Shown piece after piece: positions 9,977-23,713 of a stretch of DNA of 64,000 nt. Each line of letters starts with the position of its first letter. The first letter of the stretch is position 1. The DNA is from Kutzneria viridogrisea (lineage in GTDB: Bacteria > Actinomycetota > Actinomycetes > Mycobacteriales > Pseudonocardiaceae), in contig JACJID010000001.1 of assembly GCA_014138725.1 (NCBI GenBank), positions 2,046,001 through 2,110,000 on the forward strand, in the 5' to 3' direction. The notes under the pieces are model-generated. The model searched no databases, was not told the DNA's origin, and saw only the letters and a program-made list of their open reading frames with translations. Position numbers and translations under genes: made by a program.

Positions 9977-10446
9977 GACGGTGTCCTTTCGCTCGGCTCA
10001 GGGCGTGGGCCCCGGGGTTGCGCTTACCGAGTGCAACGACGGGACTGGTCCAATCGTTCCCCGGCGAGGGGTTTCGGTAGCCCTGGGTGACGTTATTCAC
10101 CCGTCAACCAAGAGCTTCCATCTCAGAGATGCCATCGGTTCGCCAACGTGACGCGTTATCGCGCTACCGAGTGGCAATGTCACTCTAATGGAGCAGAGAG
10201 ACCATCTGTGAACGGTGTGGATCCGGCAAAGTGATTGCGGAGCGAAACCGTCCGTAGATGCAACCCCATCTGTGAGTGACATTTCTTCCCGTATTGATGA
10301 CGGAGCGTAGCATAGCGGGTGGTCGCCCGCCCGTGGGGACCGGGTTGCACGAATGCGGGCACCCTTGCCTGCCCGTCCGTGCCCAGCGCCACACCCCCGC
10401 CAGTAGCGTCCCTGCGTTCACAGCCGCCGACCACGGGGACCCGCCG
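9977..10446. other. Gene-free 470-bp divergent region between rbpA and a secreted-protein gene
   Basis: Holds the rbpA promoter region and a stretch of lower GC content (about 10100-10320). Small repeats are visible: CCATCTGTGA at 10203-10212 and again at 10266-10275, and an inverted pair AATGTCACTC (10176-10185) / GAGTGACATT (10274-10283). No convincing ORF was seen; the possible minus-strand reading frame of 61 codons has no recognisable product. Confidence 0.5.
10034..10060 (-). promoter_or_regulatory. SigR/SigH-type promoter of rbpA
   Basis: On the minus strand GGAAC (10060-10056) and GTTG (10037-10034) are separated by 18 nt, matching the thiol-oxidative-stress sigma consensus GGAAY-N18/19-GTT. 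It is 58 nt upstream of the rbpA start. rbpA of Streptomyces is known to be a SigR target, so position and family agree. A TTGACG box further upstream could be a second, housekeeping promoter. Confidence 0.65.
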
Positions 10447-10920
10447 ATGCCGCGACCGCTGTCCAGACCCGTCCTGACCGCCCTGCTGCTCGCCCTGGTC
10501 GCCACAGTCCTGGGCGGCCCGGCCACCGCGCAGGCCGACACCCCGCCAGCGGTGTTCTCCGCCAACCAGGCCGTGGTGCCCAACGGGGGCACCGTCACCA
10601 TCACCGAGACCTGGACCAACACCCGCTCCAGCACGGTGACCTTCCTCTGGCTGGGCATTCACCCCGCGGCCCCACACCACACCACCTGGACCCTGGTGTC
10701 CTGCTCGAACTGCGGCAGGTGGGGGGACAACGACGCCACGGCGGGCGGCTCCAGCTCGATCCCGCCCGGCGGCACCGTCACCATCGCCGCCACCTACCGC
10801 ACCGGGGACACCGGCCAGGGCGTGGACGCCTTCGACGGCTACTCCTACTCCGAGTCCGCCGACGGCAACCTGTCGACCCTGGTGCCCGCCGCCGTGTCGG
10901 TCACCGTCGCCGCCTCGTGA
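10447..10920 (+). CDS. Small secreted protein of unknown function
   Basis: 157 residues from ATG 10447. The reading frame is open upstream, but this Met begins a clear signal peptide (basic start, LLLALVATVLGG core, cleavage near ATAQA) and a GGGGA stretch precedes it. The mature part of about 127 residues is rich in Thr, Ser and Gly, with alternating hydrophobic residues like a beta-sandwich (NGGTVTITETWTN, GGTVTIAATYRTG) and one CSNC pair. No family was recognised; an immunoglobulin-like adhesion or cell-surface role is only a guess. Its stop overlaps the GTG of the next gene. Confidence 0.6.
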   Translation: MPRPLSRPVLTALLLALVATVLGGPATAQADTPPAVFSANQAVVPNGGTVTITETWTNTRSSTVTFLWLGIHPAAPHHTTWTLVSCSNCGRWGDNDATAGGSSSIPPGGTVTIAATYRTGDTGQGVDAFDGYSYSESADGNLSTLVPAAVSVTVAAS

Positions 10921-11261
10921 ACCGCAACGACCGGCTCGGCGCACTGGTCCTGGAGCTGCGGACCAGCGCACCCCGGCCACGCAGCGCGCGCTGGCTGGCC
11001 CAGCGCTTCGGGGTCAGCACCCGCACCGTGGAGCGCGACATCGCCGCGCTACAGCGCACCGGCACCCTGATCCACGCCGAGACCGGGCGCGCTGGCGGCT
11101 ACGTGCTCGACCACGCCCGCTGCCTGCCCCCGCTGACCCTGACCCCCGGCGAGGCACTGGCCGTGGCCACCGCGCTCAAGGCACTGGCGGGCACCCCGCT
11201 GGCCGAGCACGCCGGGACCGCGCTGGACAAGGTGCTGGCGGTGTTGCCGCCACCGCGCTGA
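10917..11261 (+). CDS. Short HTH protein of the YafY/DeoR type lacking a WYL domain
   Basis: 114 residues from the GTG in a GTGA overlap with the secreted-protein gene. A winged HTH occupies residues 5-60 (LAQRFGVSTRTVERDIAALQ, then GGYVL), typical of HTH_11-containing WYL regulators. The remainder (LTPGEALAVATALKAL) is the short helical linker that normally leads into the WYL ligand domain, but the protein stops there. It could be a degraded regulator or a stand-alone short form, as also occurs in actinobacteria. It converges with the ECF gene, with 1 bp between stops. Confidence 0.65.
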   Translation: MNRNDRLGALVLELRTSAPRPRSARWLAQRFGVSTRTVERDIAALQRTGTLIHAETGRAGGYVLDHARCLPPLTLTPGEALAVATALKALAGTPLAEHAGTALDKVLAVLPPPR

Positions 11262-11262
11262 G

Positions 11263-12699
11263 TCAGACCGACCAGGTGAGCACGTCCTCATCCGAACGGA
11301 GCACAGCCCGCGCGTGCTGGTGACCGTCGCCGACCAGCCACGCGTGCGTGGTGAAGCTCTGCCCGGGCGCCACCGTCACCACGCAGCGCACCGTGCCGCC
11401 CAGCAGGCTCGTCAGCAGGTTGCAGCGACCGTCCGCCGACTGGATCACCGCACCCCGCGGCGGGGTGATCTCCAGCGTCATCACCCGTGCCTGCCCGCTC
11501 TGGTTGGTCGCCGTCACCGCCAGGCCCGCGACCGATCGAGAGCCGGTCAGCGACCAGTTCGGCCGTGCCGGGGGCGGGGAGGTGGTGGTCGTCGTGGGCG
11601 GAGTGGTCACCGGCGCGCTGGCCGTCGTCGGCGGGACCACCGCGGTTGTGGTGGTCGGCGGCCGTGTGCTCGTGCTCGACGGCGCCGTCGAGCTTAGTGT
11701 CGGCGTGGTCGTGCTGGTGGCGGGCGCGCTCGTGGTGGCCTCCGCCGTGGGCCGCAGCGTGGTGGCCCGGGCCGTCTCGGCCGCCGCGGCCCGCTCCTCC
11801 GACATGCCCGTGACCAGCCCGAACGTCACCGCGACGGCCAGCGCCACCGAGGAGCCCGCCGCGCCCAGCCAGGACGGGCCCGCCGCGGGCTGGGGCGGCA
11901 CCACCACCGCTGTGGTGGTCGGGGCGGGCGTGCCGCTCCACTGCCAGAACACCGTCCCCAGCAGCAGTGGGCCGATCCGCGCGGCCAGCGTGTAGTTCAG
12001 GTCCGACAGCTCCGCCGCCAGCTGGCGGCACCGCTCGCAGCCGTCCAGGTGCGACTCCACCTGCACGCTCTCCCGCCGCGACAGCCCGGTCCGCGCCCAC
12101 GCACCCAGCCGGGCCACCGTCGCCCGGCACCGCTCCTGCGCCGCCGCTAGGTGCGCCTGGAGGTACGCCTGCCGCAGGCCCTCCCGCGCCCGGTAGGCCA
12201 GCGCGGCCACCCCGTTGGGCGTCAGCCCCAGCAGTCCCGCCACCTCGGTCGGCTTGCTGCCCTCCACCTCGGTGTGCCACAGCACTGTGCGCCACCGCTC
12301 CGGCAACTGCGCGTAGGCCTGCGCCACGATCGACCGCTCCGCCGCCACCAGCACCACGTCGTCGGGCTGGTAGCCCCCGTCGAACTCGGACATGTCCTCG
12401 TGCACGCTCACCCTGCGGCCACGCCGGAACTGCTCGTGCGAGACGTTGCGCAGGGTCACCAGCAGGTAGCTGCGGAACGCCTCGTTGGGCCCCCGCCCGG
12501 CCCGCAGCGCCGTGAGCACGCGCAGGAACGCCTCCGCGACCAGGTCGTCGGCCTCCACCGAGTTCGCGGTCAGGTGCAGGGCGAAGGCCCGCGCCGCCCC
12601 ACTGTGCCGCTGGTAGAGCAGCTCGAAGTCACGGCTCGAGCCCGCGCGCACGGCCGCGATCAGCTCGGTGTCGCCGACGACGGGTACCGACTCCGGCAC
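11263..12699 (-). CDS. ECF sigma factor fused to a zinc-finger anti-sigma-like, membrane-spanning extension
   Basis: 478 residues. Region sigma-2 spans about 24-92 (LLYQRHSGAARAF, EADDLVAEAFLRV), and sigma-4 about 125-178 (LPERWRTVLWHTEVEG, then the HTH VAGLLGLTPNGVAALAYRA). It continues into a zinc-binding anti-sigma-like motif, H217-x3-C221-x2-C224 (HLDGCERC). A hydrophobic segment follows at about 277-297, then a long Thr/Pro/Ser linker (about 310-380) and a C-terminal domain of about 95 residues with two Cys (426, 439), predicted outside the cell. Such self-contained ECF proteins with C-terminal extensions are known in actinobacteria; the outer domain presumably senses a surface signal and the inner part may need release. 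No separate anti-sigma gene lies nearby. Confidence 0.85.
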   Translation of the reverse strand: MPESVPVVGDTELIAAVRAGSSRDFELLYQRHSGAARAFALHLTANSVEADDLVAEAFLRVLTALRAGRGPNEAFRSYLLVTLRNVSHEQFRRGRRVSVHEDMSEFDGGYQPDDVVLVAAERSIVAQAYAQLPERWRTVLWHTEVEGSKPTEVAGLLGLTPNGVAALAYRAREGLRQAYLQAHLAAAQERCRATVARLGAWARTGLSRRESVQVESHLDGCERCRQLAAELSDLNYTLAARIGPLLLGTVFWQWSGTPAPTTTAVVVPPQPAAGPSWLGAAGSSVALAVAVTFGLVTGMSEERAAAAETARATTLRPTAEATTSAPATSTTTPTLSSTAPSSTSTRPPTTTTAVVPPTTASAPVTTPPTTTTTSPPPARPNWSLTGSRSVAGLAVTATNQSGQARVMTLEITPPRGAVIQSADGRCNLLTSLLGGTVRCVVTVAPGQSFTTHAWLVGDGHQHARAVLRSDEDVLTWSV

Positions 12700-12793
12700 A
12701 GGCGCCTCCCAGCGGCTGGTGACAGTCGCAGTGAAGATGCACCTGCCGAGCGGCGCTTACGCGAACCGAGTGAGACCCCCGTCACACCCCGCT

Positions 12794-13098
12794 GAGTCCC
12801 GTCCTGAGGAGCGCGAGTCCCGGTCTGGAGCACGTGAGTCCCGCCCTGGCGACGACGAGTCCCGTCTTCCGGCGCGTGTCGGCGCTACCGGTGCGGTGTG
12901 TCGGACGTTCCGGGACGGTGTGTCGGCGGTCCTGTGTCGGCGTGTCCCGCGCTGGGGAGCGTGAGTCCCAGGCTGGGGAGCGCGAGTCCTGCGCTGGGTG
13001 CGCGTGTCGGTGCTTCACGCCCTGCGTGTCGGACGTTGCGGACGCGCGTGTCGGCGCTTTGCGGCGCGCGTGTTCGGCGTTCCGGGACGGTGTGTCGG
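12794..13098 (+). repeat. Array of 21-22-bp periodic repeats, left arm (two unit types)
   Basis: Sixteen units begin at 12794, 12815, 12836, 12857 (GAGTCCCG type), 12876, 12898, 12920, 12934 (GTGTCGG type), 12942 (GTGTCCCG), 12963, 12984 (GAGTCC type), then 13004, 13026, 13048, 13070, 13092 (GTGTCGG type). Most steps are 21 or 22 bp, two helical turns. The unit bodies are also alike (CTGGGGAGCGC; CGTTCCGGGACGGT). The units are not separated by unique spacers and no protein is encoded. Confidence 0.85.
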
Positions 13099-13214
13099 CG
13101 CTTGCGGGGCCGCTCGGGTCGCCCGCTGGACTGATGCGGGCTCTCCCGAGCGGGCGTGGGTGTCGGCTGGGGGTAGCTGTGCCCGCTTCGCTCTTGGCGC
13201 CCCTCCGGGGCGCG

Positions 13215-13314
13215 GCGTCTTCGCTTGGGTCCGGTCTCTTCCCTTGTCCGAAGATGATCACTGGACAGATGTGATCATCTTCGGCCTGCGGTCCAGAGAC
13301 CGGCGCGAAGACGC
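13215..13314. repeat. Nested central hairpin of the repeat region
   Basis: Perfect 14-bp inverted repeat CCGAAGATGATCAC (13248-13261) / GTGATCATCTTCGG (13271-13284), enclosed by CCGGTCTCT (13231-13239) / AGAGACCGG (13295-13303) and by GCGTCTTCGC (13215-13224) / GCGAAGACGC (13305-13314). Imperfect complementarity continues outward into the flanking arms. It could form a large cruciform or RNA structure. Confidence 0.8.
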
Positions 13315-13340
13315 GGGGCGCGGGGTGGGCGAAGCTGGGG

Positions 13341-13416
13341 CGGGACTCGCGTGCTCCAGGACGGGACTCGCGGTGCTCAGAGCGGGACTCGTCGTCGCCA
13401 GAGCGGGACTCGGGGG
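13341..13416 (-). repeat. Right arm of the repeat region: inverted 21-bp units
   Basis: CGGGACTC, the reverse complement of the left-arm unit, occurs at 13341, 13362, 13383 and 13404, exactly 21 bp apart. The arm ends at the stop codon of tdk, so the whole 12794-13416 block is an inverted-repeat structure between the ECF gene start and the tdk end. Confidence 0.8.
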
Positions 13417-14106
13417 TCAGGTGAGGCTGAGCTGGCCGCGGTGTACGGGGGAGGGGTCGAGCTCGCCGGTGCGGAAGTGCTTGCGGCACAGCACCTGGTA
13501 GCGGACCTCGGCGGCGTCGGTGTCGGCGACGAGCACGGTGTCGCCCTCGCGCAGTATCCGGTCGTCCTGCACGCGGGCGTTGAACCGGCCGGGCAGCCCG
13601 CACCAGCACAGCACCTCGACCTGCACCGGGTGCAGCTCGTCGGCCAGCTCGAACAGCCGCTGCGCCCCGGGGAACAGCATGCTGCGGAAGTCGGTGGCGA
13701 TGCCGAAGCAGTACACGTCCAGCTGGGCGTCGTCGGCCAGCTCGGCGAGCTGCTCCACCTGCGGGGCGGACAGGAACTGCGCCTCGTCCACGATCAGGTA
13801 GTCCACCCGCAGCCCGGCGGCCCACCGCTCGCGCACCAGCTGGCGCACGTCGGTGAGCTCCTCCAGCTCGGTGGCGTGCCGGGTGATGCCGATCCGGCTG
13901 GAGATCTGCGGGCTGCCCGAGCGGTCGTGGCGCACCAGCACCAGCCCGTGCCGCCCCTGGCGGGCGTGGTTGTGGTCGATCTGCAGCGCCAGGGTGGACT
14001 TGCCGCAGTCCATCGGGCCGAAGTACCAGCGCAGCCTGCCGGTGGCCGGTGCGACGCGGCGGGGCACCGAGGACAAGGCGTCGTCGAAGGATCCTGGCGT
14101 GGTCAC
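13417..14106 (-). CDS. tdk: Thymidine kinase (type II)
   Basis: 229 residues from GTG 14106; the frame is open far upstream, but that part is a shadow of the MFS gene. ATP:thymidine phosphotransferase of the salvage pathway. P-loop GPMDCGKS at 30-37, Walker-B-like DYLIVDEAQF at 102-111 with the catalytic Glu, lasso region GLPGRF near 170-175, and a structural zinc site made from C167/C169 (CWCG) and C207/H210 (CRKH). Length is typical for the TK1-like family. It lies 35 bp downstream of the MFS gene on the same strand and may be co-transcribed. Confidence 0.93.
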   Translation of the reverse strand: MTTPGSFDDALSSVPRRVAPATGRLRWYFGPMDCGKSTLALQIDHNHARQGRHGLVLVRHDRSGSPQISSRIGITRHATELEELTDVRQLVRERWAAGLRVDYLIVDEAQFLSAPQVEQLAELADDAQLDVYCFGIATDFRSMLFPGAQRLFELADELHPVQVEVLCWCGLPGRFNARVQDDRILREGDTVLVADTDAAEVRYQVLCRKHFRTGELDPSPVHRGQLSLT

Positions 14107-23461: not shown

Positions 23462-23532
23462 GTGTCCTCCCCCAAAACTCGTCCCGGCCAATGCTGTCGA
23501 GCCCGGTGCGCCCACACATCCGGAACAACCCC

Positions 23533-23561
23533 GAGTCCCGCCCTGGGTACGGCGAGTCCCG
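23533..23561 (+). repeat. Two GAGTCCCG 21-bp units
   Basis: GAGTCCCG at 23533 and at 23554, exactly 21 bp apart, with bodies like those of the 12.8-kb array (CCTGGGTAC, TCCGGGTAC). They directly precede two palindromic repeats. Confidence 0.7.
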
Positions 23562-23573
23562 CTCCGGGTACGT

Positions 23574-23622
23574 CACGAAGGTGCCGTTCGCGTCATTGGG
23601 CGTCCTGAACGGCACCTTGGTG
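23574..23622. repeat. Palindromic repeat, copy B (degenerate)
   Basis: Arms CACGAAGGTGCCGTTC (23574-23589) and GAACGGCACCTTGGTG (23607-23622), with one mismatched pair and a 17-nt loop. Same arm sequence as copies A, C and D. Confidence 0.75.
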
Positions 23623-23660
23623 GCATAGGGGCGGGACGTGGCGGCGCGCTGGGGCCGAAC

Positions 23661-23713
23661 GTCATGAAGGTGCCGTTCGCGACGCTCAACGTCTCAAACG
23701 GCACCTTCATGAC
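23661..23713. repeat. Palindromic repeat, copy C, covering the MFS stop codon
   Basis: Perfect 17-bp arms GTCATGAAGGTGCCGTT (23661-23677) / AACGGCACCTTCATGAC (23697-23713). The right arm contains the TGA (23707-23709, minus strand) of the MFS gene, so the repeat supplies the end of that reading frame. Confidence 0.8.

Follow-up and report, generated by a model that had tools for sequence, protein, structure and literature searches.

The window, a stretch of 64,000 nucleotides from Kutzneria viridogrisea, carries an array of short repeats in the 717-bp gap (12700-13416) between two genes of the minus strand, as placed by our own gene calls and Pfam. On one side lies tdk, which encodes thymidine kinase (13417..14106, minus strand; PF00265, E 9e-21) and whose 3' end the array adjoins; downstream of the array lies a gene for an ECF-type sigma factor with a zf-HC2 zinc-finger domain (11263..12699, minus strand; PF04542, PF08281, PF13490). 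The first array unit begins about 5 nt past the tdk stop codon. The array had been thought to fill the whole gap, which it does not: 94 bp ahead of the ECF gene are free.

As originally predicted, the array is built from two inverted repeat types of 21 and 22 bp. Unit A is 21 bp long with the core GAGTCCCG, unit B is 22 bp long with the core GTGTCGG, and units follow one another at 22 bp for B and at 21 bp for most A. The first arm consists of four A units oriented like the tdk transcript (13411 down to 13328, minus strand). The second arm lies on the plus strand and comprises, from its outer end inward, four A units (12794..12875; starts 12794, 12815, 12836 and 12857), three B units (12876..12941; starts 12876, 12898 and 12920), three A-like units (12942..13003; starts 12942, 12963 and 12984), the first of which reads GTGTCCCG, a mixture of B and A starts, and five B units (13004..13113; starts 13004, 13026, 13048, 13070 and 13092) that begin with GTGTCGG or GTGTTCGG. 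The predicted count of four units in the minus direction holds; in the plus direction there are 15, not the "about 16" first read. Amid the array sits the nested hairpin that had been described, with outer arms at 13198-13231 and 13298-13331 and an inner, perfect 14-bp stem at 13248-13261 and 13271-13284, both seen in the inverted-repeat listing and in the fold. A second hairpin within the loop, CCGCTCGGG...CCCGAGCGG (13110..13154), appears in the fold of the minus strand.

The two arms of the array are complementary across a loop of nearly 500 nt: 12794-12846 matches 13338-13390 at 87%, and 12836-12864 matches 13383-13411 at 97%. Folded as the minus strand, 12780-13416 reaches -334.8 kcal/mol (z -7.16), a value equalled by none of 20 dinucleotide shuffles. 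The array is non-coding, as had been proposed; its open reading frames are mechanical, because each 22-bp B unit shifts the frame, and we rejected them as coding sequence. A CRISPR array was likewise rejected, in keeping with the first reading. The regular direct repeats are a likeness, but the units are contiguous at 21 or 22 bp with no unique spacers, the arms are inverted, and the units are diverged, those within one array agreeing at a mean of 59% of variable positions. Rfam gave no match within the window at gathering score.

The window holds a second array of two A units on the plus strand (23533..23574, starts 23533 and 23554) in the tandem gap 23462-23706, where a recurrence of the GAGTCCCG pair had been noticed. 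Alongside this array, the same gap contains hairpins of another gene-end family, GTCATGAAGGTGCC[GC]TTC..., which also occurs in sample gaps of C1, C2 and C4; it occupies 18 gaps of the 1.264-Mb sample described below (11 convergent, 5 tandem and 2 divergent), 5 of which also carry arrays. The related GAAAGTGCCGT motif is the commonest non-array 11-mer of that sample, found in 24 gaps.

Copy number and placement of the repeat family

Across the genome to which the window belongs (G000; 10.25 Mb, 11 contigs, GC 72%), a 29-bp A pair allowed up to 3 mismatches has 1,041 matches, against 0 for the reversed pattern, so chance is excluded genome-wide. Pairs of the form GAGTCCCG-N13-GAGTCCCG with up to 1 mismatch number 1,559 (control, 2), and exact B pairs 235 (control, 0). 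The units are hugely enriched elsewhere in the genome and almost only intergenic, with 208 of 12,267 array bases falling in predicted coding sequence.

For a closer inventory, we took a sample of 1.264 Mb, made up of three 400-kb stretches and the window. A position-weight scan of this sample, with a model trained on the arrays that a core regular expression had found in that very sample, yielded 90 arrays with 551 units, and the reversed sequence yielded one array of one unit; extrapolated from the sample, the whole genome would hold about 730 arrays. The longest reach about 39 units and run one way. Steps between units are regular, with 285 of 328 A steps at 21 and 126 of 133 B steps at 22, the chaining having favoured 21 and 22 while permitting 18-25 and double steps. 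A period scan that used no motif was positive in 32 of 434 gaps of at least 85 bp (the period was 21 or 22 in 30 of these) and in 0 of 434 shuffled gaps that preserved single-base content only. Once the phase had been set so as to match the core best, six or more of the seven core bases were present in 53 of 55 period-21 regions and 18 of 20 period-22 regions.

Conservation is uneven along the unit. In the period-found regions, the A core (columns 1-8) is conserved at 0.88-0.96 and most other columns at 0.59-0.76, the exceptions being column 16 (0.88) and column 20 (0.83). In the B unit the contrast is less sharp, and the conserved columns (1-4, 7, 16 and 21) are scattered. This pattern bears on two alternative explanations. 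In the first, a selfish or neutral repeat multiplies by copying and lengthens by slippage, with gene 3' ends being the least harmful sites and any effect on transcripts incidental. Uneven conservation counts against plain decay, which should affect every column to the same degree, unless copying itself needs the core. The second, which takes in the phased DNA-binding protein first suggested, sees in the units a row of binding sites spaced by two helical turns, at which a sequence-specific DNA- or RNA-binding protein would act on gene ends as a transcription roadblock, insulator or nucleoid anchor; the regular 21- and 22-bp steps and a core that varies far less than most of the unit, recovered without use of a motif, both speak for it.

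The arrays are not scattered evenly over intergenic gaps. In the sample they occupy 24 of 130 convergent, 25 of 478 tandem and 1 of 185 divergent gaps; among gaps of at least 60 bp the figures are 24 of 73, 25 of 273 and 1 of 168 (convergent versus divergent, Fisher p 3e-13). Our own gene caller missed atypical genes such as those of the DUF222 family, which were added by coordinates before these counts; before the addition, the counts were 27 of 130 convergent, 23 of 471 tandem and 0 of 184 divergent. The sole divergent array lies ahead of a broken DUF222 copy. First units that run with the gene begin 3-41 nt past its stop codon in 45 of 53 cases and lie within -15 to 45 nt of it in 46 of 53; antisense first units lie within -15 to 45 nt in 11 of 20. 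Where a gap holds one plus and one minus array, the two face inward in 18 gaps and outward in 3. Some gaps that seem one-way have an unseen partner, because single-unit arms escape detection. The repeat may itself supply the end of the gene, with the stop codon TGA lying inside a reversed A unit in three sample genes and inside a forward unit in one.

Orientation offers little to a roadblock. With the DUF222-linked cases set aside, nine tandem gaps with one-way arrays are left, of which 4 run along and 5 against the upstream gene; a polar roadblock by orientation is unsupported on these nine gaps, and this undirectedness counts against the binding-site explanation.

Folding of the arms and signals for transcript ending

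Six hand-picked two-armed loci fold far better than their shuffles on both strands (z -3.6 to -10.9), and six hand-picked one-way arrays no better and mostly worse (z -0.2 to +3.9), each judged against 30 shuffles that preserved single-base content only. Two-armed loci accordingly place a stable hairpin just past the stop codon, and one-way arrays do not. The palindrome exists solely at the level of the inverted arms and not within units: a hairpin at the level of the unit was considered and rejected, as neither A nor B holds a Watson-Crick stem and the strongest column pairs are neighbours or near neighbours. Inward arm pairs join B with B in 13 of 23 cases, and 7 of the 23, all B with B, share an identical centre spacing with a TTCCCAGCTSGTGGGAA-like centre of about 17 nt.

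Over the loci as a whole, nothing points to selection on individual hairpins. The arms of a locus pair with each other no better than with swapped arms, whether judged by pairing energy (-1.31 versus -1.32 kcal/nt, p 0.69, 23 pairs) or by identity (0.635 versus 0.652, p 0.44, 24 loci). Two of these 24 loci depart from this nominally, and the window locus is among them, its own arms matching at 0.75 against 0.60 when swapped (p 0.02). In the compact elements of related species, introduced below, own arms are again no better than swapped ones (p 1.0 and 0.90, 26 elements). Because the arms lack general compensatory change and the one-way arrays are unstructured, spread by copying with little function is a serious rival, and the main one, though we consider it rather unlikely. 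The lack of structure in the long one-way arrays also speaks for tandem binding sites.

The original prediction had offered a terminator or insulator, or a cruciform, as possible roles. The placement at gene 3' ends, with 1 of 185 divergent gaps occupied, and the strong folding of inward arms fit such roles; the absence of a U-tract and the large size of the loop between the window arms speak against them. No terminator-like site with a U-tract was found in 12600-13500, and T-rich windows follow 12 of 73 array ends against 76 of 346 other ends. In the accessible part of a study that mapped 3' ends in Streptomyces, 353 of 535 structured ends have no U-tract (PMC8269248), and termination by an array stem is plausible because many structured ends there go without one. 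The array shares with the U-tract-less "I-shaped" terminators of Streptomyces, as far as that part of the source describes them (PMC8269248), a GC-rich hairpin close past the stop codon with no U-run; it differs in belonging to a repeat family whose ends are fixed and whose arms are very long and made of many units.

Compact relatives and the DUF222 genes

In all six other genus members examined, no array stands behind tdk, and RbpA follows directly; none was seen in which the region is coding. In the window, about 3.4 kb (10000-13416), containing the ECF sigma gene, an HTH gene and one unknown gene, separates tdk from RbpA. A pairs number at most 12 in any of these six congeners, against 1,559 in G000, and B pairs 0 against 235. 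Such a burst in one species speaks for a selfish repeat. In a 400-kb sample of the congener G126, 0 of 106 gaps carry tandem arrays.

What the convergent gaps of G126 hold instead are compact hairpins with a single A core at each end. These ends, GAGTCCCGC...GCGGGACTC, recur in five of the six congeners: the pattern GAGTCCCGC N30-60 GCGGGACTC is found 76 times in G126, 42 in G019, 22 in G142, 14 in G087, 2 in G109 and 0 in G057, as well as 34 times in G000 and 98 times in G008, a member of another genus (g9). Among 249 genomes of the family, eight further ones have one match each and the remainder none; the reversed control has 0 in all six congeners and 1 in each of two of the 249. At one locus of G008 (L249), each arm carries two A cores at 22-bp spacing.

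We took 28 compact elements with their flanks (12 from G126, 11 from G019 and 5 from four other genomes), namely the first places among the matches listed, a non-random choice from which repeats of one element were dropped. Of these, 17 lie in convergent, 10 in tandem and 1 in divergent gaps. A stop codon is 4-26 nt away in 39 of 44 measured distances, the others being -56, -32, -23, 124 and 267. Their dG runs from -35 to -60. Interiors vary by species, with a GTCACACCGAA type in G019 and G087 and a GGGCAACTGAATGTCGAG type in G126 and G142, where G126 also has some of the GTCACACCGAA type. That the ends and the mostly 4-26 nt spacing recur in other species around different interiors argues against a purely selfish repeat. 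The congeners also speak against phased binding sites: one unit per arm suffices there, so phasing is unnecessary.

Outside the genus, genera g15 and g5 have arrays with the A core and different interiors, and this common core is in favour of a bound protein. With gene calls that used the codon model of G000, 17 of 25 arrays in g15 and g5 run with the gene and lie within 50 nt of its end; 8 of 25 fall outside this gene-end rule, and one G193 array lies in an apparent divergent gap. Two of four stretches from G193 and G213 had no array by our script. Taking the core, the spacing, the undirected one-way arrays and the one-unit congeners together, we regard tandem binding sites as a distinctly unlikely explanation.

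Elsewhere, 133 of 249 family genomes match the A pair at 1 mismatch one or more times, most of them only a few times; we discounted these, as their counts resemble those of the reversed control (up to 8). Head-to-tail microsatellites of the seven-base GAGTCCC occur at G205:C1:1251493 and 2369018 and at G109:C14:78359. A pattern scan of the named genomes gave no match, in a set from which near relatives may be absent.

Two convergent gaps could be followed between species. In the first, an orthologous gap, eight B units in G000 correspond to a one-unit A hairpin in G126, to fewer than 10 bp with no element in G087 and to a 1.8-kb spacer in G019. In the second, the flank alignments lie 9 bp apart in G019 and 34 bp apart in G087, against 216 bp or more in G000. 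Such a nearly empty gap would suit a selfish repeat, though the right-hand neighbour in G019 and G087 is a second, paralogous copy; the spacer of G126 is unrelated.

A further explanation makes the repeat part of a mobile element specified by a DUF222/HNH gene of the 13E12 type, with solitary arrays as leftovers or non-autonomous copies. REP13E12 of Mycobacterium tuberculosis belongs to this DUF222/HNH 13E12 repeat family. One DUF222 subfamily of G000, which we call group 1, bears A/B units 5' of the gene in all fifteen copies (L088-L100, L112, L113, L116 and L117), with at least four units within the 1.5-kb flank. Twelve of the copies are open, one has an internal stop and two are in pieces; besides the query, 12 copies show 85-92% protein identity. 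Three copies printed in full have a long inverted repeat in common. Across 13 copies compared by eye, homology ends near the gene's stop codon, so the group-1 copies resemble a discrete mobile element some 2.3 kb long.

The link does not extend to the family at large. Thirteen other DUF222 loci examined in G000 have no such 5' arrays, two of them with a few flank units. Five congeners (G126, G142, G019, G109 and G087) have their own DUF222 sets, at best about 40-53% identical to the one in G000, and ten congener loci show no GAGTCCCG on either strand in the flanks taken, yet compact elements occur in five of the six congeners. A pairs are present with no DUF222 match in G053 and G130, and G053 has arrays. 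The DUF222-linked units form a shifted subfamily; their B units are shifted from C to T on the sense strand (B position 5 is T in 54%, against 19% elsewhere), as if deaminated. A DUF222 scan of the named genomes turned up 29 loci, with 33-59% identity over the best segment. Beside the window array there is no DUF222 gene; directly downstream lies the ECF sigma gene instead. DUF222 as a universal partner is rejected by the G053 arrays and by the ten congener loci with no motif, and an origin of the repeat in a DUF222 element is very improbable. In our reading, these genes travel with the repeat or make use of it and did not cause it.

A proposed gene-end hairpin with multiplied ends

The array was rightly noticed as a real feature of the sequence, and the roles proposed for it are supported in part; neither outcome named as counting against the first reading, a lack of enrichment elsewhere in the genome or a coding region in a relative, came about. 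From the observed position, repeat structure, folding potential and one-unit relatives, we lean, with limited conviction, towards seeing in the window array a gene-end hairpin that resembles REP/BIME elements and has had its terminal motif multiplied in tandem. The starting form would be the compact palindrome GAGTCCCGC...GCGGGACTC, placed a few bases past stop codons and often between two convergent stops. In G000 the end motif would then have been multiplied head to tail at a 21-bp period as unit A, and the second, 22-bp unit B added, giving arrays of which many form two inward-facing arms and the longest run one way. A compact palindrome first and tandem multiplication later, most of it in G000, seems the simplest history.

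Given that the paired arms fold strongly, termination or protection of mRNA 3' ends would be the likeliest effect. In the tdk transcript, the minus units may pair with plus units roughly 450-620 nt downstream into a long stem around the nested hairpins. Such a stem would stop RNA polymerase with no U-tract, alone or with Rho, or would block 3' exonucleases; the tdk mRNA would end at the array, and the ECF gene would thereby be insulated. The elements themselves may have spread by copying via a putative enzyme.

REPs are known mainly from proteobacteria, as high-copy, gene-end sequences in inverted dimers, according to the accessible part of one account (PMC3733652; see also PMC3116915). As in the REP, BIME and REPIN elements described there, the array family is present in many copies, intergenic and inverted, lies mostly in convergent or codirectional gaps, often within about 20 bp of stops, and now and then supplies the stop codon, as in the four sample genes above. 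The differences are equally plain. The array consensus begins GAGTCCCG or GTGTCGG and has no terminal GTAG or CGTC tag. A REP unit is an imperfect palindrome of 20-40 nt, and the A and B units are not palindromic. The family has grown in tandem at 21 or 22 bp to about 39 units, in a host that RbpA and the GC content of 72% mark as actinobacterial. A search for RAYT (Y1_Tnp, PF01797) found 0 matches in G000, and 5 of 14 control genomes were positive. The family is REP/BIME-like in anatomy and lies outside the described superfamilies. We found no description of A/B units in a partial literature search that covered few subscription journals.

A bolder reading, which we think unlikely, is that this is a RAYT-free, REP-like actinobacterial system in which GAGTCCCGC would be the recognition site of a trans factor, and in which tandem sites would both amplify and fence transcription units in one species. 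The trans factor could possibly be a group-1 DUF222 HNH protein or a transcription-ending protein.

The family bears on how transcripts end in GC-rich actinobacteria, where many mapped ends have no U-tract, as the accessible part of the Streptomyces study reports (PMC8269248). With an element in one of every three sampled convergent gaps of at least 60 bp, and with one-unit congeners alongside, the family constitutes a natural dose series for asking whether such hairpins end transcripts, and it represents a REP-like population without the transposase that accompanies GTAG REPs elsewhere.
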